Made by a program: the position numbers and the translations under genes
Notes under the pieces: model-generated
Told to the model about the DNA's origin: nothing
The model's input: the letters and a program-made list of their open reading frames with translations, nothing else
The model's database searches: none
Virus record (IMG/VR): IMGVR_UViG_3300044522_000254
Span: 1-20,998 of that record
DNA: 20,998 nucleotides
Origin: a virus
Strand: one strand, 5' to 3'
Part shown: piece by piece, positions 1-14,669 of the stretch
How the letters are laid out: each line of letters begins with the position of its first letter
How positions within the stretch are numbered: the first letter of the stretch is position 1

Positions 1-611
1 AATTCTGATTCATACATTTCTATTTTGTGTGTTTTTATAGTTTGAGTAACTGTGTTTTTTGTTTTTGTTTCGTAATATGATGTTAATTCAGATTGCATTG
101 ACTTTTGTCTAAACCACGTTTTTAATCCTATCGTTTCATATTGACTTGAAAGTAAATCTTTATATGAAAATTTGGTAGTTCTATCTTCGTCAAGTGCTGT
201 TATATAGAATGGGTTTGTATAATACGAACTATCATCATAAGTAAATTTAAGATATATCAAATCATTATGACAGTCAACATTTGGAGTTATTGACCAATAG
301 TACAAACCTGTTGCGTAAAGGTCAATAACTATATCACTATCAATAGTTGTAGAAGTATTGTCAATACGAATAGTCTCTGCATTAGTTACTTCTTGAATTG
401 AATATGAATACAACAAATTGATAAGTAATGAATCATCTTCAACTTTTAATATCGATACAGTATATGGACTACTTAAATCTATTGTTGTTTTCTGTGTATA
501 ACTATTATTAGGAAGCAGTTGTATTCCTCCAAACTCATAAAAACTATTTCTTTGGCTATCTTTAAAATAGAGAGCTTCTGCCTTTGTCGTGTATAAATTT
601 ATTGCACTCAT
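1..611 (-). CDS. Tail fibre-like protein, N-terminal part (runs off window)
   Basis: This is an incomplete gene: the ATG is at 611 and the reading frame stays open to the left edge, giving about 203 residues. The first 38 residues are encoded by DNA identical to the start of the upstream gene at 3435 (exact 121-bp repeat). Downstream of that the two proteins stay alignable, sharing for example DLIYLKFT, YYTNPFYITALDEDR and the WFRQKS region, but this copy has an insertion of roughly 20 residues around residues 75-100. It is therefore a tandem paralogue of the 937-aa fibre-like protein and starts 11 bases after that gene's stop. A conserved N-terminus followed by a probably different distal part is what is expected of alternative phage tail fibres or appendages attached through the same anchor. 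The function is inferred from context. The C-terminal domains are not visible. Confidence 0.75.
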   Translation of the reverse strand, partial: MSAINLYTTKAEALYFKDSQRNSFYEFGGIQLLPNNSYTQKTTIDLSSPYTVSILKVEDDSLLINLLYSYSIQEVTNAETIRIDNTSTTIDSDIVIDLYATGLYYWSITPNVDCHNDLIYLKFTYDDSSYYTNPFYITALDEDRTTKFSYKDLLSSQYETIGLKTWFRQKSMQSELTSYYETKTKNTVTQTIKTHKIEMYESE

Positions 612-616
612 AATTA
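496..616. repeat. Exact 121-bp direct repeat, copy 1
   Basis: Bases 496-616 match 3320-3440 without a single difference, and the identity stops abruptly on both sides. The repeat covers the first 38 codons or so of two tandem fibre-like genes plus five bases upstream of each ATG. Such identity between otherwise diverged paralogues suggests recent recombination or gene conversion. Confidence 0.95.
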
Positions 617-621
617 TTTAT

Positions 622-3435
622 TTACCATATTGAATAATATGCATTAATATACGACTCTATATTTTCTCTATTAGCTGTACTAGCTACATTTGGAAATGAC
701 ATTATTTCAGAGATATACCCATCTGTATAGCCATAGAATCCCGTACCACCAGTCCTTCCAATCACTATATCAGAGTTTGTAACTGTTAATGAAGTCACAT
801 CGTATGGAATTAATAGCGACCCATTTGACCAAGCATTTGTTGTTGATGTATCTGCTATTAATTCATATAATCTATTTATACCTGGTGAATTTGTATATCC
901 AGTAAATGTACCCTGAGTTCCATAACTTATACTATTTCCACTTGGCACATAAAATCTTTGAGCAGGAGCAGCAAGTGAAAAAAGTAAACACGTACTGGTA
1001 GGGGCTAACCCATTACCTAAAGTATAAGTAGAAACATTATTAAAAGGAACTGATGTGTCATTAGCACTTAAAAAAGTTGAGTTTAATTGGATAAATCTAA
1101 TAGCAACTTTTCCATCGGTAGTTTCTAAATTACCTGATTGAACTAATCTTGGCTGATTTGTGATATTTGCACGTGTTGTATTTTTATCATTTCCACTTTG
1201 GTCAAACCACGTAACAACAAATATGTCACAAGTATTATATCCATCAATATTTGTATATCCACTTGAAGCAGCAAACTCGCCTAATGTTGTTGCATCTGTA
1301 TAAGTTCCAGATATATAAGTAACAGGACTATCTAGCCCTATTGTATTGTTTGAATTGAAATATACGTTTACTACTGTTGTAGTGACGCTTGGGGTTAAAG
1401 TCGTTCTTCTTACTCTCAAACATTTACGAGTAAAAGTATTGCTCAATCTTCTTAATGAATAAGCGTGATATGATGGATATAATCCATTTATAAGATTTAA
1501 GTTTGGAACAGCCAATGCTGTAAATGTTACTTCTTCTCCATAAGTAGTTTTTACACTATTAGTCGCATAGGCTCTAACTTTGTATGTAAAACCAGGTGTT
1601 AATCCAGTCATATCACTAATAAATATCCCTGCCCCCGCTCCATTGATTGTTCTTGGATTTGATACTATATTAGGATTTCCTGCGGTATTCCAACACACAC
1701 CTCTAGCTGTAACATCAAAACCACCATCATTAACAACTTCTCCACCACAAGTAGCAATTTTTGTTGAAATTTCCGTAACAATATCTGTGGTTACTGTGGC
1801 TTCTCCAGCTTCAGTAAGAACTTGTACATTATTAGCGTATGTAACAACCCCATCTATAAGTGCGTAAGCTCTAATGTGATAAGTTGTATTAGGTCTTAAT
1901 CCAAATATGTCGATAGTGTATGCCCCATTTATATTTTCACTTGTTATTTTAGTGTTCGCTAATGTTGGATTTATAGATTTACCATATACTATACCTCTCT
2001 CACTTATATTTCCTGAAAAATCATTTGGTATATATCCTCCAGTTCCTGTAATTTCATCTCCTACTACGTCTAATGGGGGTGTAGTTGTAAACCCTGAAAT
2101 TACATACATATCTTTTATAAGCCTTATTGATGCACCTCTATTAAGAGTAATTGTTGAAGGGTAATAATTTTGGAATCTATTTGATGTACTTTCTAAACGA
2201 ACATTAAGTGTAAATGGCATATCTTTTGCCCACCAATATCCAAAATTGCCTAAATCTGAAAATATCGTAGAATCTAACCCTGATTTAGACCCTCCAGGCA
2301 ATGCTGTAAATCCACTAGTGTTAGTCCCAGTATTTCCGATGCTCCAATGATAAGTTCCACTTTCTTTTAACTTAGCTCCTGATACTGAATTTCCTCCTAA
2401 AGATAATGATAAATTTGTCCAATCTGTGTATAATGCTGCTGACCATCCTATTGGAGCTATGTTTTTTCTATTTGCTATTTGCAATTCTGTTGGGGGATTC
2501 GATTCTTCTGTATGTATTCCCATCAATGCATACCAATTATACAATCTTCCATATATTGTTCCATTTGATGTGCTGTCTTCATAATAACGCCAAGCTCCAG
2601 TCTTTAATGCCGCCCATCCAGTTTTTACTTCAGGAATAGGAGTTCCATCTCTATAACTATCTGTGTTTAAATTATATCTATCCCATATTCTATAATCTGG
2701 CATTACATCACTTCCTGAAAATGAGGGTTCAAACTGAGATTTACCAACTAAAGTGAATTTTATCTTTCCAAAGTTCTCTTGCTGTGTTAATTCAGGTATT
2801 TTAACTGCTTCAAATAAATTATATCTCGTATCACGTATATATAAGCTAGAACTTTTAAGTATTTCAGCTGTCATAATTAAATCATCTATACTCATAAATT
2901 CTGATTCATATATATGTAGCATATTTGTCTTTATAGCTTGAGTAACTGTATTACCAGTCGATGATTCATAATATGTAGTTAATTCAGATTGTTTTGATTT
3001 CTGTCTAAACCACACTTTTAGGCTTATTGATTCATAATTATTTAATTCGAAATCTCTGTATGTAAATTTAGTTACCCTATCTTCATCTAACGCTGTTATA
3101 TAGAAAGGATTTGTGTAATATGTATTTGTTCCGTTTGTGAATTTAAGATAAATTAAATCCTTACCAAAATCATTTCTTGGAGTCATAGACAAATAATATG
3201 GACTTGGAGCTCCAATTACTTCTTGAATTGAATATGAAATATTACCAACAGCCGAATCATCAGCGACTTTTAATACCGACACAACATAAGAGTTTCCAAA
3301 ATTTGTTGTTATTTTTTGAGTATAACTATTATTAGGAAGCAGTTGTATTCCTCCAAACTCATAAAAACTATTTCTTTGGCTATCTTTAAAATAGAGAGCT
3401 TCTGCCTTTGTCGTGTATAAATTTATTGCACTCAT
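622..3435 (-). CDS. Modular tail fibre-like protein with FISUMP, Fn3-like and AbfB/LamG-like domains
   Basis: This 937-aa protein is probably a distal tail or fibre component involved in binding the host surface. Visible modules are: residues 1-240, an N-terminal region shared with the next gene; about 247-443, a FISUMP (Fib_succ_major) domain with GAWRYYED, YGRLYNWYA, SLGG, SGFTALPGG and the terminal SIRLIKD motif; about 444-541 and 545-640, two Fn3-like repeats with ERGIVYG...NPT, ARGVCWNT...NP and YKVRAYA; about 648-937, a domain with AYSLRRLS, CLRVRR, WFDQSGN and QPRLVQSG, as in arabinofuranosidase-B-like/concanavalin-type domains of Bacteroidota phages and surface proteins. I chose the ATG at 3435, two bases after the upstream stop, because the paralogous gene starts at the same MSAINLY sequence. 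The frame extends 44 codons further upstream, but only inside the previous gene. Catalytic activity is not demonstrated, so a binding role is as likely. Confidence 0.8.
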   Translation of the reverse strand: MSAINLYTTKAEALYFKDSQRNSFYEFGGIQLLPNNSYTQKITTNFGNSYVVSVLKVADDSAVGNISYSIQEVIGAPSPYYLSMTPRNDFGKDLIYLKFTNGTNTYYTNPFYITALDEDRVTKFTYRDFELNNYESISLKVWFRQKSKQSELTTYYESSTGNTVTQAIKTNMLHIYESEFMSIDDLIMTAEILKSSSLYIRDTRYNLFEAVKIPELTQQENFGKIKFTLVGKSQFEPSFSGSDVMPDYRIWDRYNLNTDSYRDGTPIPEVKTGWAALKTGAWRYYEDSTSNGTIYGRLYNWYALMGIHTEESNPPTELQIANRKNIAPIGWSAALYTDWTNLSLSLGGNSVSGAKLKESGTYHWSIGNTGTNTSGFTALPGGSKSGLDSTIFSDLGNFGYWWAKDMPFTLNVRLESTSNRFQNYYPSTITLNRGASIRLIKDMYVISGFTTTPPLDVVGDEITGTGGYIPNDFSGNISERGIVYGKSINPTLANTKITSENINGAYTIDIFGLRPNTTYHIRAYALIDGVVTYANNVQVLTEAGEATVTTDIVTEISTKIATCGGEVVNDGGFDVTARGVCWNTAGNPNIVSNPRTINGAGAGIFISDMTGLTPGFTYKVRAYATNSVKTTYGEEVTFTALAVPNLNLINGLYPSYHAYSLRRLSNTFTRKCLRVRRTTLTPSVTTTVVNVYFNSNNTIGLDSPVTYISGTYTDATTLGEFAASSGYTNIDGYNTCDIFVVTWFDQSGNDKNTTRANITNQPRLVQSGNLETTDGKVAIRFIQLNSTFLSANDTSVPFNNVSTYTLGNGLAPTSTCLLFSLAAPAQRFYVPSGNSISYGTQGTFTGYTNSPGINRLYELIADTSTTNAWSNGSLLIPYDVTSLTVTNSDIVIGRTGGTGFYGYTDGYISEIMSFPNVASTANRENIESYINAYYSIW

Positions 3436-3440
3436 AATTA
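3320..3440. repeat. Exact 121-bp direct repeat, copy 2
   Basis: This is the partner of 496-616. It includes the final TAA of the upstream tail-tip gene (3440-3438) and the first codons of the 937-aa fibre-like gene. Confidence 0.95.
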
Positions 3441-6400
3441 ATCTTTTATTAGTCTTACTGAAAAACCTATTCTCTTGCTGTAATAATCTCTGACTGCTAA
3501 ACTTTGGATATAATACAAGGTACGTGACCAAGAGAAAGATGCATCTTTTTCTGATGAACTCCACCAATACCCTAAATTACCAATACTGCTGAATGTTCCG
3601 CTACTGCCATCTCTAAAACCTGCTGGAAGCCCTGTAAACGCACTTTCATTTGTTGCTTCTGCATTAGGATTTGTCCAATGTGATAATCCAGTTTCCTTCA
3701 TTTTTCCACCAGCAAAATCTTCTCCACCTAAGTAAGTAATTAATGTAGTCCATTCTGTATCTGAAGGAATGTGATACCCGAGTGGAGCTAATCCTCTACT
3801 ATCATTAACAGCATACCAATTATATAATTTACCATAAGTAGCTTCAGTTGCAGGGTCATTGTTATAATAACACCAAGCACCTGTTGTTAAGCCTTGCCAA
3901 GCTGTTGGGTCAGTTACTTGGGGTATTACTGTACCATCTCTGTATGTAGATACATTAAGATTTCTATTAGTCCATTTTTGTGTTCCAATTACTACATATT
4001 CTTTTAATAATCTTACTGACAGACCGCTTGTTTTACTACTATTTCCTATAACTATATTGTCATCATTATGGTATAGGTTACGGTTAAATGCGTTAGTTGC
4101 ATTATTCTCAGTAGAACTCCAAAATCCTCCAGCATTATTAATTTCTGTAAAGTTACCGATGAATCTATATCCTGATGGAAGTGCTGTAAAACCGCTTTCA
4201 TTAGTAGCTCCTGTATTAGGATTTGTCCATAAGCCATCTCCTGTTGTTAAATTTCCTGTTGATTTTATTTTTCCTCCAGCAAGACTTTCTCCTCCTAAAC
4301 TACTTGTTAAAACCATAAATTCTGTATCTGTTGGTACATAATATCCTAATGGAGCTATTCCTCTACTATCATTAACAGCATACCAATTATACAATTTTCC
4401 ATATACGAGTCCATTAGGAGACGAATTAGCGTACCAACACCAAGCTCCTGTTGTTAATCCTGCCCAAGTAGTAGGGTCTGTAACTTGTGGTATTGTATCT
4501 CCATTTCTATATTTAACAACATCTAAGTTCTCAACCATCCAAATTTGATTTCCAATTTGAACATCAGTAACTCCACCTAAAAAACTTATTTCTTGTCCGT
4601 AACTTGTTCCATTTGCGTTAGTAGCAAAAGCTCTTGCATAATAATTTGTAAATTGAACTAATGGATACATTAAACTTGTAAATGAAGCATACCCACTTCC
4701 ATTGTATGTTTTAGTGTTTAACGCAATAGTTGGATTAGAACTTGTACTCCACACCATTCCTTTATCTATTATTGTAGAATAACCATCTGACAATAGATTT
4801 CCTCCTGATAATTCACTAGTTCCTGATTTTGGAGATATTGCTTTCGTTTCAATTGTAGGAACAAATGATGAATTAAATTTTTCTTCTGCCTTTATAGTTA
4901 ATTCCTTAGTTAAATTCTCATACTTCATACTCATTGGATATAACAAAATAGGTAATCCATTATTGTCGTATGTAGTAATATAACCTCTTACATTTCTTAC
5001 ATTATTTTGTAATGTTATATAGTCTGAATATTCAACATTTGCAAATACCACATCGTTATATATGAATGGACTTAAAATTGGAGTTGTATTGATAAATCCA
5101 GTTTCTATACCATCTCCCTCTTTTAATGTAATATTATTATAAGTAGAAGTAAACCCCTTGTTGTTTTTGTAAGATGATAATGTTATAGGTAGCGTTCTAT
5201 TATATATATTACAAGTAGCCAAGTATTTCAACCAATGGTTATTTATATTTCTTTTTATCGAATACCTTAAATTAGCAAAAGCTTGACTAGATATAATTGA
5301 TTCATTTATATTTGTAATACCGCCATCAGTATACGAAGTATATGGGTTTACAGTAGGATTTGGAGAATAATTATAAGTAGTTGCAGGAACATTTGATGAT
5401 TCAGATAAATCACTTAATCTTTTTAAGTCCATATAATAAACGCCTGAATTTGAAGCTTCTATTACCTCGTATACTCCTTTATTATAAGCTGAAGTTATAG
5501 TTACAGTAGCTCCATTAACAGGGAAAGCAGTAGAACTCCAAGCAGATGATTTAGTTATTCTTATTTTTCTTATGCCTAATGGAGCTATACCAGTACTTGT
5601 AAAATAATGTGCTAAAATTATAGGTGTTTGACTCCCGTTTATCGGTAATCCACTACCAGTTCCATCGCTAAAACCTACGTAACTATAAGCTGTTTCAAAA
5701 TATGTTGTGCCACTATCATTTATTCTTTCTAAGTAAATATAAGTAATTGCGTTGCCTGACACAACTTGAGCTAAAGGCGTAATCGATTTTATAAAATAAT
5801 TTCCCTTATTTAAATCACTTGTTATATTTAATTTATCTCCGATTACTAATGGCAATAATGCTAAATTAAGGTCTATACTTCTTAAGGCTAAGTATTCAAA
5901 ACTACCATCATATTTGTGGTAAACACTAAAACTTGAACTTTTAAATTCCTCTGTTGTCAATCTTGAATCTACTATAAATAAAGTGTCATCATTTTGAGAT
6001 GATGTAGTCGAGGACAAATCTATCGCCTTTCTTCTGTTTTCTTCAATTAAAAATGAATCCCTTACCCATTCAATAGATATATCTTTTTTATTCTCTACGC
6101 TTTTATTTTTTAATACCCATTTAGACTCTCCATTAATTACATCATAAGAGTTTAATATTTCATTTTCCTTTTGCGATTGAAATTTCTTATATCCATAATT
6201 AAACTCATTAATCTGAAATCTTGGATTAAATGTTTTGTTAAATGATGAAAATTGAACATTAGTGAATGTCTTAATTGGAGTTTCAGTATAAAAATCATCC
6301 TCAGTACCAAAAAATATTTTAGTTTCAGTTACCCCTAAATTTGTATAATCAGTTATTTGCCAATCTACATTTAACTCTACAAGTGATTTTTCTAAATCTT

Positions 6401-7652
6401 CTAAAGAAACTAAAAAAGGTCTTTTAATAAGTTTTAATGCAGGAAGATTTACTCCATCATCAACAATTTCACTTACCTCAGTTAAACCTCTTAAAAAGTT
6501 ACCGTTTAACAGTCTATTGTTGTAAAAAGTACCTGCTGAATCAAATCTTGGAGCATCTATATTTAATCCTGAAATTGATTTGACAACTTGTCGCATTACA
6601 TCTATTAGCCTAAACGATAAAGAAACAGAGTTTACAGAATCAACTTCCGCCTCTATTTCCATTTGAGAACCTGTTTGTTTGTATTTAATTTCACTGACAC
6701 CGCCACCATCGTGTGCTACTTGAAATCTATTGTACATCCAAAGCGAATGCCCTTGTGAAATTAATGGAATTTCAAAAGTACCTGATATAGTGTATGTTTT
6801 TTGACTTGACCCTGCTCCATAATGCGATTCAAAAACCGATTGTGGGAATATATATTCAGTAGCAGAATTAAAGCTAGAACCATACCGATACGCAAATTCT
6901 CCATAGGCATCTCCGCTCCCTGCTCCTCCTAATGGGTTTGTAGACCTATTTCTTAGATATAAATCCGCTGTAAATTCAGATATTTTTATTTTTACATTTT
7001 TTAAATCTCCATTTTTTGCTGTTAAAAGCTTTGTCCCATCACCATCTCCAGTATTAGAAGCTCCAAAAGATGTGTCAATAGAAGAATCGTATAATTCTCC
7101 TGAATAGCTATAATATCTTGTAGTTGTACTGCCACCTGTGTCTACAACAGTCTGATAGTCAAATCCGTCTTTTTTCCACCTTGAGTTTTCAGTCACTGGC
7201 TTGGAAATCATTATAATATTCTGAGTAGGTAATGGAGCAATATAATTGCCATCGATGTCTTTATCACTCAATAAATCAACTTTAACAGACTTTCTTCGTT
7301 TTACTATCTGTTTACTTGACTGCTGAATAACTTTACATTTAAAGTACTCGAAATCGTCTGTAATAGCAGTAGCAAAGTCTAACTCTCCAATTACTTGTGT
7401 AGAAATAACTAACTCTACAATAGATTCAAATCCATAAGTGTTGTTGTATTGTAATAACTTATCTAAATAATGATTACGATATTTAACAAACTCAAACTGC
7501 ACTTCGCCACCATTAAAAGATACATCACGACCATATCCTTTGTCTTTTTGCTTTAACTGAAAATCAACCGTAGCAAAGTTGATAGGTTCATCAATGCTAA
7601 GGTATACATCTTCGTTATTTCTAAATCTTAGTTGGAAAGTTTCTCCTGCCAT
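3438..7652 (-). CDS. Large tail-tip/baseplate-like protein ending in Fn3 and two tandem FISUMP domains
   Basis: This 1404-aa protein starts two bases after the tape measure stop, the usual place for distal tail, tail-tip or host-specificity proteins. The N-terminal part (about residues 1-130, with QLRFRNNEDVYLSIDEP and a run of beta-rich sequence) and the long middle are not assignable to a named family by eye, but look like an all-beta structural tail protein. The C-terminus is clearer: an Fn3-like repeat at about 933-1027 (KGMVWSTSSNPT, YYARAFATNANG), then two consecutive FISUMP domains at about 1028-1218 and 1219-1404. Both domains contain GAWC, YGKLYNWYAVNDSRG, APLGY, a SLGGE/YLGGE glycine turn, a FWSSTE/WWSSSE motif and an ending of SVRLLKE or SVRLIKD. 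FISUMP domains are common in Bacteroidota surface proteins, so a receptor-contact role is inferred. No secretion signal is present, which fits a virion protein. Confidence 0.8.
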   Translation of the reverse strand: MAGETFQLRFRNNEDVYLSIDEPINFATVDFQLKQKDKGYGRDVSFNGGEVQFEFVKYRNHYLDKLLQYNNTYGFESIVELVISTQVIGELDFATAITDDFEYFKCKVIQQSSKQIVKRRKSVKVDLLSDKDIDGNYIAPLPTQNIIMISKPVTENSRWKKDGFDYQTVVDTGGSTTTRYYSYSGELYDSSIDTSFGASNTGDGDGTKLLTAKNGDLKNVKIKISEFTADLYLRNRSTNPLGGAGSGDAYGEFAYRYGSSFNSATEYIFPQSVFESHYGAGSSQKTYTISGTFEIPLISQGHSLWMYNRFQVAHDGGGVSEIKYKQTGSQMEIEAEVDSVNSVSLSFRLIDVMRQVVKSISGLNIDAPRFDSAGTFYNNRLLNGNFLRGLTEVSEIVDDGVNLPALKLIKRPFLVSLEDLEKSLVELNVDWQITDYTNLGVTETKIFFGTEDDFYTETPIKTFTNVQFSSFNKTFNPRFQINEFNYGYKKFQSQKENEILNSYDVINGESKWVLKNKSVENKKDISIEWVRDSFLIEENRRKAIDLSSTTSSQNDDTLFIVDSRLTTEEFKSSSFSVYHKYDGSFEYLALRSIDLNLALLPLVIGDKLNITSDLNKGNYFIKSITPLAQVVSGNAITYIYLERINDSGTTYFETAYSYVGFSDGTGSGLPINGSQTPIILAHYFTSTGIAPLGIRKIRITKSSAWSSTAFPVNGATVTITSAYNKGVYEVIEASNSGVYYMDLKRLSDLSESSNVPATTYNYSPNPTVNPYTSYTDGGITNINESIISSQAFANLRYSIKRNINNHWLKYLATCNIYNRTLPITLSSYKNNKGFTSTYNNITLKEGDGIETGFINTTPILSPFIYNDVVFANVEYSDYITLQNNVRNVRGYITTYDNNGLPILLYPMSMKYENLTKELTIKAEEKFNSSFVPTIETKAISPKSGTSELSGGNLLSDGYSTIIDKGMVWSTSSNPTIALNTKTYNGSGYASFTSLMYPLVQFTNYYARAFATNANGTSYGQEISFLGGVTDVQIGNQIWMVENLDVVKYRNGDTIPQVTDPTTWAGLTTGAWCWYANSSPNGLVYGKLYNWYAVNDSRGIAPLGYYVPTDTEFMVLTSSLGGESLAGGKIKSTGNLTTGDGLWTNPNTGATNESGFTALPSGYRFIGNFTEINNAGGFWSSTENNATNAFNRNLYHNDDNIVIGNSSKTSGLSVRLLKEYVVIGTQKWTNRNLNVSTYRDGTVIPQVTDPTAWQGLTTGAWCYYNNDPATEATYGKLYNWYAVNDSRGLAPLGYHIPSDTEWTTLITYLGGEDFAGGKMKETGLSHWTNPNAEATNESAFTGLPAGFRDGSSGTFSSIGNLGYWWSSSEKDASFSWSRTLYYIQSLAVRDYYSKRIGFSVRLIKD
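3784..3836. repeat. FISUMP-coding repeat, distal copy
   Basis: This 53-base stretch matches 4351-4403 with three differences. It encodes the YGKLYNWYAVNDSRGLAP core of the second FISUMP domain. A weaker third relative (gcataccaattatacaat) lies near 2527 in the next gene. It reflects domain duplication within the protein. Confidence 0.85.
4351..4403. repeat. FISUMP-coding repeat, proximal copy
   Basis: Partner of 3784-3836, encoding YGKLYNWYAVNDSRGIAP of the first FISUMP domain. The offset between copies is 567 bases, which is about the length of one domain. Confidence 0.85.
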
Positions 7653-7654
7653 AA

Positions 7655-10600
7655 TTATACGCTTATACCAATTGCTTGAGAACGATTACTATTTGACCTT
7701 GTTATACTGTTACCATTTCTAACATACGATTGAAATCCGTTCTTGTCAAAGATAGTGTTTTGTGTTTTAATATTACCAAAATGTTTGCCTAAAATTTCAT
7801 CCATTTCATCAGGAGTCATTCCTTGATATTGTGGAGATGCCATTGATATATTATTACTTTGTAACATTTCAAATAATTGTTGTTCGTGATTTAATACTTT
7901 AGTTCCTTTAGGAGCATCCATAAGCACGTTTCTACCTTGAGGTCTAATTACTTTGCCACTTGGTAATATAACCTTCTCTTGGTAATTGCTTCCTGCTCCA
8001 TCATTCACAAGCATCAAACCTCCTGAGTGATTATCTGTACCTTCAGCATAAGCAGGTGGTTTTTGAGAAGCAACCATCCCTATTTGAGCAGCTCCTAAAC
8101 CAGCAATAATAAAAGCTAATGTAGTGGCACTAACACCAAAATCATATTTAGGAACTTGTGCATAAGTACTTACAATAGCCTGAGCAGTATCAATAGCTAT
8201 ATTTGCAATAGTTATTTTTTGTTTAGCCTTAAACTCTCTTAATTGAATTTCTTTTTTCTTTTTCTCGTAATCAGCTTCGATTTTTTCTTTAGCAGCAGTA
8301 CTATCTCCAGCATTTTTTATTGCTTCTGTTTTTTGTTTGTCTAAACGAGCATATTCAGCATCAAAACTTGCTTGAGAAGATTCATTAATCGTATTAAACA
8401 TTCCTTGAGCAGCATCTCCAATTACTTGAAAGGCAATAGCTGACTTTTCAGCAAGACTATCTGTACTATCCATCATCTTCATAAATGAAGATTGACCATT
8501 TTCATCAAAATCTAAGAATGTTTTAAGGCTTTGCATTCCTAACGCTTCTAAAGAATTAGTAAGTGCCTTGTCATAACTGTCCTTAAAAAATCCATCAACA
8601 GCTGCTTTAGCTTGTTCAGCTGGAGATATAATTTTAGTTAATTCTAATCTTAATGCCTTAAAGTTTTCCCTTACTGCTTCTTGTTTTATTGGGTCAGCTC
8701 CAGCTTCTCGCATTGCCATTGCTTCTTGAACAGCTATCCTCTTTTCAGCATCTAATAAAAATTCTTGGAACGCAGCTTCCCTATCTTTTAATGTTCGTTT
8801 TTTACCTTTTTCTTTATCTTCATAAATCATTTTATCAGCTAATATTTCAGCATCTAATTTTTTAATAGATAATTCTTGAGATGATTTTAAGTCTTTTTCT
8901 CTTAAATCTTCAATGTATTTTTCTTGTGAGTTTAATAATACTTTCTCTTTATTAATTTCCTCTACGTTTATTTTTTCTAATACAGTTTTATGTGTTTTAT
9001 CGATGTCTTCAATATTTTTATTATATTGCTTTCTATCTATTGTTTTATTTTTTAAAGCTCTATCATTTTCTACTTTGTCATCATCTCTTTTTTTATCCGC
9101 TATTGCTTTTTCTTCTGATGCAACTTCAAATATTTTTAACAATTCAAATTCTGTTAATTTTGTTCTATTCTCTATTTTTTGCTCGGTAGTAAGTTTATCT
9201 AAATCAGCAGATTGTAAATCAATTTTTTGCCCTTCAATCTTTGCTTCTGCTAAATCGTGTACAGATTTTACTTCATCAAACTTCAATACCTTTTTTTCAG
9301 GCTTATCTGTTAATTTATCTAATTTTTCTTGAGCTTTTTGTTCTTCTTTAAATCTTGCAGTTTGATTTGCTTCAACAAGTTTTGATATTTTTTGACCTTG
9401 TATTTTTACAGCACCTTCTCTTGTAATAGCATTTTTTTCAAAGTCTTTTAACTCCTCAGCTGTTGCAGTATATCCTAATTTTCTTAACTCAGCTAACTCT
9501 CTTTTTTTTCTAATTATGTTGTTAGTCATATCTTTTACGTTATTATCCGTAACAGCCTTACTATCTAATTCTACATATTTTTTAGCGTTTTCATATTTTT
9601 CTTTAGCCGCAGCACTTGCTGAAACAAGATTTTTCTGAATATCCTTTTCTTTTTGTAATTCTGATTGTCTTATTTTTTCTTCAGAAGCACCAGCTTGAAT
9701 TAAATTTTGTTTTCTTATTTCTGCTTGGTGTTCTATATTTCTTGTTGTGTTTATAATTGCATTATCAGTTTCTGCTTGAGAACGCTTAAATGCTTCTTGC
9801 CTATCTTTTACATCTCCTAAACCCCTTGCAATGTCAATTAATTTTGAACCATATACTGTAAGTAAAGTAACTCCAAGAGATATTACTGTTTGCCAAGAGA
9901 AAAATCCATTTGCTAATGTTTTTAATATAGATTCAGTTGGCTTACCATCTTTTTGAAGGTCTTTGTTCTTTTGTATAAGCACCCCTAATTCATCCGTTAA
10001 AATAGGGATGTTGTTAGACAATGCCATAAATCCAGTGCTAACACTATTAGCAAATGCTGGAGCTTCACGAGTAAGTTGGTTAATCGAGTTACCTAATCCA
10101 TTCCAAGATGATGAATAGTTACCAACATTACGAGTGTGTTTTCCAATATCAGTATCTACAACTCTTAATTGCTTACCATATTCATTAGCTTTATTTTTAG
10201 CATCTTCATAGGCTTTACCTGTTCTATTTGTAGTAATAGCTAAATCTTGAGCTAATTTTACGGCTTGTTTATGTTGAGCGTCTAATCTTGCATAAGCTCC
10301 AATTTGTTCGTTAGAGGCTGTGGATTCTAATGTTTTTGCTTTATTTAATTCTTTTTGAGCAATTGTTTCTTCGGTTATTCCTTTAACACTAGAAGTTCTC
10401 GCTACTGCTACTTTATTTAATTTGTCGCTTAAATCCGTAAAGTCTTTTATTTGTTGTTCTATTACAGCATTTAGCTTTGCATTTTCAGCAGTAAGTTTAG
10501 TTAAATCAGCAGTACTCTTAACGGTATTTGTATTATTTCCTAGCGCAGCGAATTTAGCAGATAATTCTCCAAATTTCGTATCTACTTTACCAAGTTCAGT

Positions 10601-13077: not shown

Positions 13078-13596
13078 CTACTTTAATTTAAAATCACTAA
13101 CTTGAAATGTAACCTTAAAACAATGATTCGGATGCAAATCATTTACTAATTTAAAATCATATCCACTAAATACTGAAGTAATGTCAGTTGTTATCTTTTT
13201 TGTAACTTCTACATATCCAATTGTGGATAAAATATTAATTACATCCATTCTAACTTCTTCGTCAGCTCTATGCTGTATCGATGGCTTACAATCTTTTACA
13301 TTCACTATGAAATATACCTCTATTTCTGCATTATAGGTTGTAAAGCTATTTTGTGTAACATCTTTTTTACAAGTGAAGAAGAATTTGTTTTTGTCAGTAT
13401 GTATTAATGACTCGTACTCTCCTTTTCCTTTGTAATGCTCAAGTGTAGTTTTCTTATCTCTTTTTATCTCATAACATCTTGGATAACCATCTAACTTTAC
13501 ATTCCACAAAGCAGTCAATTTGTCGTACAATTTTTTTTGTACCTTATCAACTACTAAATCTAATCCTACTGGATTTGTTTTTGTATAGTTTGCCAT
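13078..13596 (-). CDS. Putative tail completion/head-tail connector protein
   Basis: This 172-aa protein has alternating helix and beta pattern: an N-terminal helix (about 13-32), beta strands around FFFTCKKD and AEIEVYFIVNV (about 91-130), a helix with RADEEVRMDVINIL, and final strands ending CFKVTFQVSDF. The layout (long initial helix, then sheet, helix and sheet) and position after the capsid genes and before the tube protein resemble tail terminator or tail completion proteins that cap the tail and join it to the head. No diagnostic motif is present, so the call is contextual. It overlaps the upstream 357-aa gene by one base (TAATG), indicating coupled translation. Confidence 0.5.
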   Translation of the reverse strand: MANYTKTNPVGLDLVVDKVQKKLYDKLTALWNVKLDGYPRCYEIKRDKKTTLEHYKGKGEYESLIHTDKNKFFFTCKKDVTQNSFTTYNAEIEVYFIVNVKDCKPSIQHRADEEVRMDVINILSTIGYVEVTKKITTDITSVFSGYDFKLVNDLHPNHCFKVTFQVSDFKLK

Positions 13597-14669
13597 TATC
13601 TTAATGTATAAGCAAAGACTTGATTTTGTTTAACTAAACCTTTTTTTAACTTACCTATTTCTGTTCTTATAGAAGCAATCTCTCCTAATAACTGATTTTC
13701 TAAACCGATTACTTTAACAATGCTTTCGCTACCTGTACCTTTTAATTCAATCATTAATTTCTCGTATAATTGAGCTGATTGAGATTGGTTTGAGTTACTT
13801 CTTAATGATGATACATATAGTTGAATACAACCAATGATACCTTCAATCTGAATCGCTCTTGCGAAAATCATTTTGTTATTTATAATGAAATCAGTATAAT
13901 CTTCATAAACCGATATATCTAAATTCAATCCTGAATCTTCTGACAATCCATCAACATCATCTAAATCGAATAGTGTAGTAGTCAAATGATTTGGCACTTT
14001 TACTCTTTCAACTTTTAAGTACGTTGGGTTTGATAAGACATTGCCTGAGTTCCACTCTCTTTTATATGGGGTTACAGTAAGCGAGTTATTAATATAACCG
14101 ATATAGTACTCTCCTTTGTAAGTGGTGTCTGAATTGTCTATAACCCAGTCAAGCACTACTTCTTGATGGTCAGTTGTAATTGTTATTACCTTAGATTGTA
14201 TCGTTGCCTTCTTTGCAGTATTCCAAAGTAGTAAAGTAAAACTTCCTGTACCTTGAAAATCGAGTAACACACGACTTATTTTAAAAGCCACATTTTTCTG
14301 ACTTGTTACTCTAATATGATACCCGACAAATCCTGTTGGTAATGTTTCTACTTCTATTTTATTAGAAGCGTTTTTGAACAATAATGTTCTATCTATGAAA
14401 TCGTAATCGCTAAATACTTGATTACAAACACTTGCTACCGATGATTTTTTTATATCAGTAAGCAATGAATTGAAACCTGTTGCAGATATATCAACGTAAT
14501 CTTGGTTGTCCTTTATATACTCGATTTTAGCATACGGATTATCCGTTATGTAATAACCTGAAGAACTTGCTTGATTTGTTGAGTCTACAATAGCATAATC
14601 AGGATTGTAAGGCTGTTTAAACCCTACAAGTCCCGATAACGCTGTTTGTATTTTTGTGATGTTTATCAT
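13596..14669 (-). CDS. Virion-associated protein of unknown function next to the capsid gene
   Basis: This 357-aa protein lies three bases after the major capsid stop. Residues about 105-235 are beta-rich (FKISRVLLDFQGTGSFTLLLW, then VITITTDHQEVVLDW and GEYYIGYI), resembling a jelly-roll/carbohydrate-binding-like sandwich. Residues about 236-357 are more helical and contain an Asp/Glu-rich patch (FDLDDVDGLSED) and a Ser/Gln stretch followed by a helix ending in LKKGLVKQ. I do not recognise a named family. The strong beta-sandwich appearance and the neighbours suggest a structural role, perhaps a capsid decoration or a head-tail connector, but this is inference. It is coupled to the next gene by a one-base overlap. 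Confidence 0.6.
   Translation of the reverse strand: MINITKIQTALSGLVGFKQPYNPDYAIVDSTNQASSSGYYITDNPYAKIEYIKDNQDYVDISATGFNSLLTDIKKSSVASVCNQVFSDYDFIDRTLLFKNASNKIEVETLPTGFVGYHIRVTSQKNVAFKISRVLLDFQGTGSFTLLLWNTAKKATIQSKVITITTDHQEVVLDWVIDNSDTTYKGEYYIGYINNSLTVTPYKREWNSGNVLSNPTYLKVERVKVPNHLTTTLFDLDDVDGLSEDSGLNLDISVYEDYTDFIINNKMIFARAIQIEGIIGCIQLYVSSLRSNSNQSQSAQLYEKLMIELKGTGSESIVKVIGLENQLLGEIASIRTEIGKLKKGLVKQNQVFAYTLR

Follow-up and report, generated by a model that had tools for sequence, protein, structure and literature searches.

Two neighbouring genes at the end of a viral contig begin with the same 121 bases, which raises the question of whether they are tail fibres able to replace one another by recombination or have come to share this block through a different history. 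The window analysed here is an entire IMG/VR record, a fragment of 20,998 bp, and gene 3 of the locus is therefore cut by the contig end. The phage genes described are all encoded on the minus strand and follow the standard order of tailed phages. The features that bear on the question are as follows.

20763-18975, minus strand: small and large terminase
18962-17325, minus strand: portal
between portal and tape measure in the listed order, minus strand: probable capsid protein
10663-7655, minus strand: tape measure
3438-7652, minus strand: gene 1, a conserved tail protein directly upstream of the anchor in relatives, ending here in two FISUMP domains
622-3435, minus strand: gene 2, an anchor fused to a predicted adhesin, 937 aa (ORF; PF09603)
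2716-3435, minus strand: anchor domain of gene 2, residues 1-240 (AlphaFold2; fold match to mumin6-3 protein)
622-2707, minus strand: distal putative adhesin module of gene 2, about residues 243-937 (match to L224 5932-8073)
2113-2688, minus strand: FISUMP (Fib_succ_major, PF09603) domain of gene 2 (Pfam)
628-1674, minus strand: C-terminal region of gene 2, match to phrog_10356 (virion structural protein)
3-611, minus strand: gene 3, most likely a canonical tail-tip anchor, N-terminal 203 residues, cut by the contig end (open ORF; anchor HMM)
3320-3440, minus strand: 121-bp exact repeat, copy over the start of gene 2
496-616, minus strand: 121-bp exact repeat, copy over the start of gene 3

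Relatives of the portal and of gene 1 among isolates are mostly Bacteroidota phages, and the host of the virus is probably Flavobacterium. Exact-match scans returned no near-identical strains of the window phage. Our best explanation, which as a whole we consider probable, is that the locus is the tail tip of a Flavobacterium-type siphophage in which an anchor-adhesin gene, gene 2, has been acquired beside the canonical anchor gene, the 5' ends of the two have recombined, and deletion of the acquired gene is possible.

The anchor family and its place behind gene 1

Gene 2 and gene 3 share a domain of approximately 229 residues, in keeping with the earlier proposal that they are paralogues, and gene 3 scores 322 bits against the anchor HMM. 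This N-terminal domain is conserved among related phages (~43 contigs), being carried by about 41 viral contigs and by two from one Flavobacterium MAG, and the order of gene 1 followed by an anchor is kept in about 40 contigs and also in those of the MAG. In nearly all relatives the anchor is a single short gene of ~255-300 aa that carries no adhesin domains and directly follows the gene-1 homologue. Gene 3 is most likely such a short canonical anchor without an adhesin, so that few or no distal domains are expected to the left of the contig end, which argues against the plain tandem fibre pair of the preliminary description. Tandem anchors are rare (3 of ~43 contigs), and comparison of the locus across relatives reveals that the two-gene arrangement is not fixed, most having one anchor.

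The AlphaFold2 model of the gene 2 anchor (residues 1-240) is mostly beta, with a mean pLDDT of 88.6 from an input of 40 sequences, where 15 sequences gave a pLDDT of 59. Among viral proteins, those closest to it in fold are uncharacterised; one of them, of 364 aa, is from Flavobacterium phage mumin6-3 (TM 0.84, 21% identity). The Muminvirus gene of this length is gp059, which lies directly after gp058, the gene-1 homologue, and profile comparison of the anchor with gp059 gives a 97% homology probability. The gp058-gp059 pair of Flavobacterium Muminvirus (PMC7077304; MN812222) thus resembles the window in both fold and gene order, although gp059 is single copy, 364 aa long, only ~21-24% identical and annotated as hypothetical. 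The anchor family has no clear Pfam or PHROG match, and searches of solved structures with the anchor profile, gene 1 and gene 2 gave zero sequence matches. A PDB fold family for the anchor was also considered and set aside, as the matches have low TM and are Ig-like sandwiches of a generic kind; the best is 4m8r (VIA-align Z 5.1, rmsd 3.4, 87 residues). From gene order, the fold family and PHROG neighbours we infer that the conserved anchor protein has a structural role at the tail tip. The family was previously unnamed, and we know of no anchor-family gene with a tested function. Annotation of attachment proteins is poor in phages of Flavobacterium and other Bacteroidota, and the locus defines a widespread tail-tip anchor family that is hypothetical in the annotation of the cultured Muminvirus.

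Gene 1 itself varies. Its FISUMP (PF09603) score is 279.1 bits against a curated Pfam cut-off of 33.9, and two tandem FISUMP domains close the gene (window 3438-4604), with ~77% DNA identity over 150 bp at a distance of 567 bp. L010 and L013 have one such domain where the window has two, and relatives have gene-1 products of 871 to about 1400 aa. Even between mumin6-4 and mumin6-3, isolates of one species, gp058 differs in length by 159 bp (L228 4953-7490, L229 3633-6329).

Gene 2 and the gene 1/anchor junction

Beyond its anchor, gene 2 carries a distal module of 695 residues that is FISUMP/fn3-like. The PF09603 domain spans residues 250-441 (E=4.9e-25, 89.3 bits against the cut-off of 33.9) and is followed by a weak fn3 match; the C-terminal region has a 43% aa relative that is a separate downstream gene in L013 (13001-13969). 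From residue 243 to the stop, gene 2 is 78% identical in amino acids to a free-standing 713-aa gene of a further phage (L224 5932-8073), with 82% DNA identity over the part searched. The L224 phage carries GroEL and GroES genes and a terminase of phrog_6681, as against phrog_2 in the window, and outside the module DNA comparison of the two gave no strong or long match, just short, weak stretches; it is otherwise unrelated to the window phage. The N-terminus of the L224 protein consists of 24 different residues and similarity begins at a DYRIW motif, the start of FISUMP. The same putative adhesin is therefore carried on different mounts in different phages. The two sequences show that the module is shared and give no indication of the direction of transfer. 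The conserved anchor with a variable distal part proposed by the preliminary description thus holds for gene 2, whose distal module recurs in an unrelated phage, and the locus reveals a graft point of that adhesin. L109 has another gene in which an anchor is fused to FISUMP (13218-14510), truncated at the end of that contig. Taken together, domains, gene order and PHROG names suggest that the gene 2 product is on the virion and binds a host receptor.

The position that gene 2 occupies is variable in content. Gene 1 and the first anchor usually lie 2-140 bp apart, but the distance reaches 450 bp in L009, 466 in L109, 636 in L219, 1,073 in L198, 1,160 in L195 and 1,772 in L217. These long gaps hold unrelated small ORFs, and elsewhere the junction contains an extra anchor (L006) or, in the window, gene 2. 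The junction therefore looks insertion-prone, a place where genes would come and go. It is conceivable, though on balance doubtful, that it is a recurrent docking site at which phages of this type acquire anchor-fused adhesins from unrelated phages and shed them again through homologous recombination within the conserved first ~40 codons; if true, this would be a recombinase-free means of equipping the tail tip with an optional second adhesin. Two junction ORFs of 145-150 aa (L009 7561-7998, L109 12763-13215) look related and have no Pfam match. Endonuclease genes also occur nearby in relatives, a GIY-YIG homing-endonuclease gene directly after the anchor in L012 (8923-9600) and, in L008 (155-631), one of the NUMOD4/HNH type that lies upstream of the tape measure. 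Nearby homing endonucleases of relatives could promote local gene conversion.

The 121-bp repeat and the history of the two anchor copies

The repeat reported in the preliminary description is borne out in every dimension: the identity of 496-616 with 3320-3440 is exact and cannot be extended by one base on either side, the copies are separated by 2,824 bp, and both lie over translation starts, the minus-strand ATGs at 3435 (gene 2) and 611 (gene 3). It is by far the longest exact repeat of the window, the runner-up of ~33 bp being between the two FISUMP domains of gene 1. In both genes it runs from 5 nt upstream of the ATG through 38 codons. Homology continues past the repeat, as was also claimed, with 62% aa identity between gene 2 and gene 3 over 203 residues and about 70% nt identity in the DNA beyond the repeat. 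In 90 other pairs drawn from 14 related anchor genes the same 5' block is 68-96% identical, and in none is it 100% identical. Part of the identity thus reflects constraint, since the block is conserved among phages at up to 96%, but the exact match in the window is exceptional and more than constraint alone would give. In L006 the blocks of two adjacent anchors are only 75% identical, so identity within a genome is not required.

The sharp edges of the repeat had been read as a sign of recent exchange. This stands for the downstream edge, where identity drops from 100% to ~70%, and falls for the upstream edge, which is uninformative because unrelated gene ends flank the ATGs there. Recent exchange at the 5' block is supported by the contrast between 100% identity in the block and 70% nt identity in the remainder, and by gene bodies whose lineages are discordant. 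In the DNA tree of the region beyond the repeat, the gene 2 anchor groups with the fused gene of L109 (support 94/97), the partners of gene 3 are L005 and L013, whose anchors are single-copy (89/86), and a clade of gene 2 and gene 3 is rejected by the AU test on DNA (p=0.008). On protein the same test does not reject the two as sisters (p=0.09). The extra anchor of L006 groups with the L012 anchor (99/97), and its pairing with its own neighbour as sisters is rejected by the AU test on both DNA (p=0.002) and protein (p=0.0002). As the L006 copy belongs with the L012 anchor, extra copies would derive from other phages, and it appears that they are mostly older lineages brought together rather than fresh duplications. 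The 5' block of gene 2 is 96% identical to that of L013 and 91% to that of L109, its sister in the gene body, which hints weakly that a canonical anchor gene may have donated the block.

These results bear directly on the possibility that a single fibre gene was duplicated in situ and diverged, with its 5' identity kept by selection. The paralogues are adjacent, have the same orientation and share 62% of their residues, the 5' block is conserved in all relatives, and the protein AU test (p=0.09) is compatible with such an origin. On DNA, however, the two bodies fall into different lineages (AU p=0.008), which speaks against a recent whole-gene duplication as the origin, and gene 2 bears a foreign adhesin that L224 also has. 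The 25% difference between the L006 copies in the same block further implies that identity is not forced by selection, and we consider tandem duplication unlikely. An assembly artefact, in which two strains were joined at a common 121-bp block, appears less likely still. The second copy does lie within 611 bp of the contig end, the identity is exact, and one relative, L007, has a possible chimeric inversion at its own contig end. Against this, the order of gene 1, extra anchor and canonical anchor is found independently in L006, whose copies, with only 75% identity in the block, differ too much to have been misjoined at a repeat, a fused gene is present independently in L109, and coherent, complete gene ends flank each copy of the repeat.

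A programmed host-range switch, whether a diversity-generating retroelement acting on the FISUMP domains or a site-specific inversion cassette, is highly improbable: FISUMP is a retroelement target in human microbiomes (PMC4159848) and in Bacteroides uniformis siphophages (PMC8143477), where it likewise lies in a putative phage adhesin, and L007 has an inverted FISUMP-anchor segment, but no reverse transcriptase was found in ten contigs of up to 44 kb, no serine or tyrosine recombinase was found in ten contigs, and differences between the window and L224 modules are scattered without clustering at the FISUMP end. As most of these contigs are fragments, the absence of such genes is not final. 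Unlike the B. uniformis targets, the window has no reverse transcriptase or variable-repeat pattern that could be seen; its inverted repeats are short and imperfect, and no template/variable repeat pair with adenine-biased changes was seen among its repeats, in a search that was not template-specific. The failure to find recombinases or a reverse transcriptase in the contigs searched, together with the scarcity of tandem anchors, also tells against the dedicated switching cassette envisaged earlier. The L007 segment (1-733, at the contig end) comprises the FISUMP end of gene 1 and the start of the anchor, joined in inverted orientation to the middle of an extra anchor copy. Its action as an invertase substrate was set aside in favour of a chimera or an illegitimate inversion, given a junction with only ~5 bp of microhomology (AGCTT).

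Gene 2 therefore seems best described as an accessory adhesin on an older anchor paralogue, the 5' end of which was recently homogenised with that of gene 3. We propose that the conserved, beta-rich anchor of ~230 residues normally sits directly after gene 1 as a short, adhesin-free gene, and that gene 2, in which an anchor from a different lineage continues in frame into a FISUMP/fn3-like adhesin, has come to occupy the gene 1/anchor junction. The gene 2 anchor would most likely dock on the tail tip beside or instead of the canonical anchor and display the adhesin. The first codons shared by anchor genes may provide homology sufficient for ordinary recombination, and the latest such event would have homogenised the 121 bp, either by gene conversion or by a crossover during acquisition. 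Recombination between the copies could in turn remove gene 2 and restore the single-anchor state. The preliminary description expected this recombination to yield a new fusion with a different appendage; as the repeat is identical and contains the start codon, the product would instead be an unchanged gene 3 behind gene 1, and the predicted change reduces to loss of an accessory adhesin.

Relation to known systems

The locus is a newly seen, clear case of the known swapping of phage attachment parts. A parallel in mechanism is the branched tail-spike (TSP) complex of the Ackermannviridae, which has several receptor-binding genes with structural N-terminal domains and for which recombination through the conserved 5' ends of tsp genes has been proposed; a tandem tsp5 added in the laboratory led to a tsp4/tsp5 chimera, or to tsp3 loss with truncation of tsp4 (PMC11414711). 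The anchor genes of the window similarly share conserved 5' ends that may allow recombination. They differ in virion type and proteins, in that the usual anchor of the family is without an adhesin, in that the identical block covers the first 38 codons only, and in that recombination would delete a gene and form no chimera. Distantly related Alteromonas phages have a host recognition module in common (PMC10579305), although there a whole multi-gene module is shared together with a chaperone, whereas in the window a single in-frame set of distal domains is shared on an unrelated N-terminus. A survey of domain shuffling in phages identified recent mosaic proteins by at least 70% identity over the shared part, among them tail fibres, spikes, endolysins and others (PMC10684548). 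Gene 2 and its L224 counterpart (78%) fit this definition, and the window adds to the survey a site, an anchor family and a 5' homology block. In L013 the gene after the canonical anchor (8813-10471) is tail-spike-like with a Peptidase_S74 chaperone domain, and its product is likely to be the main fibre of these phages.
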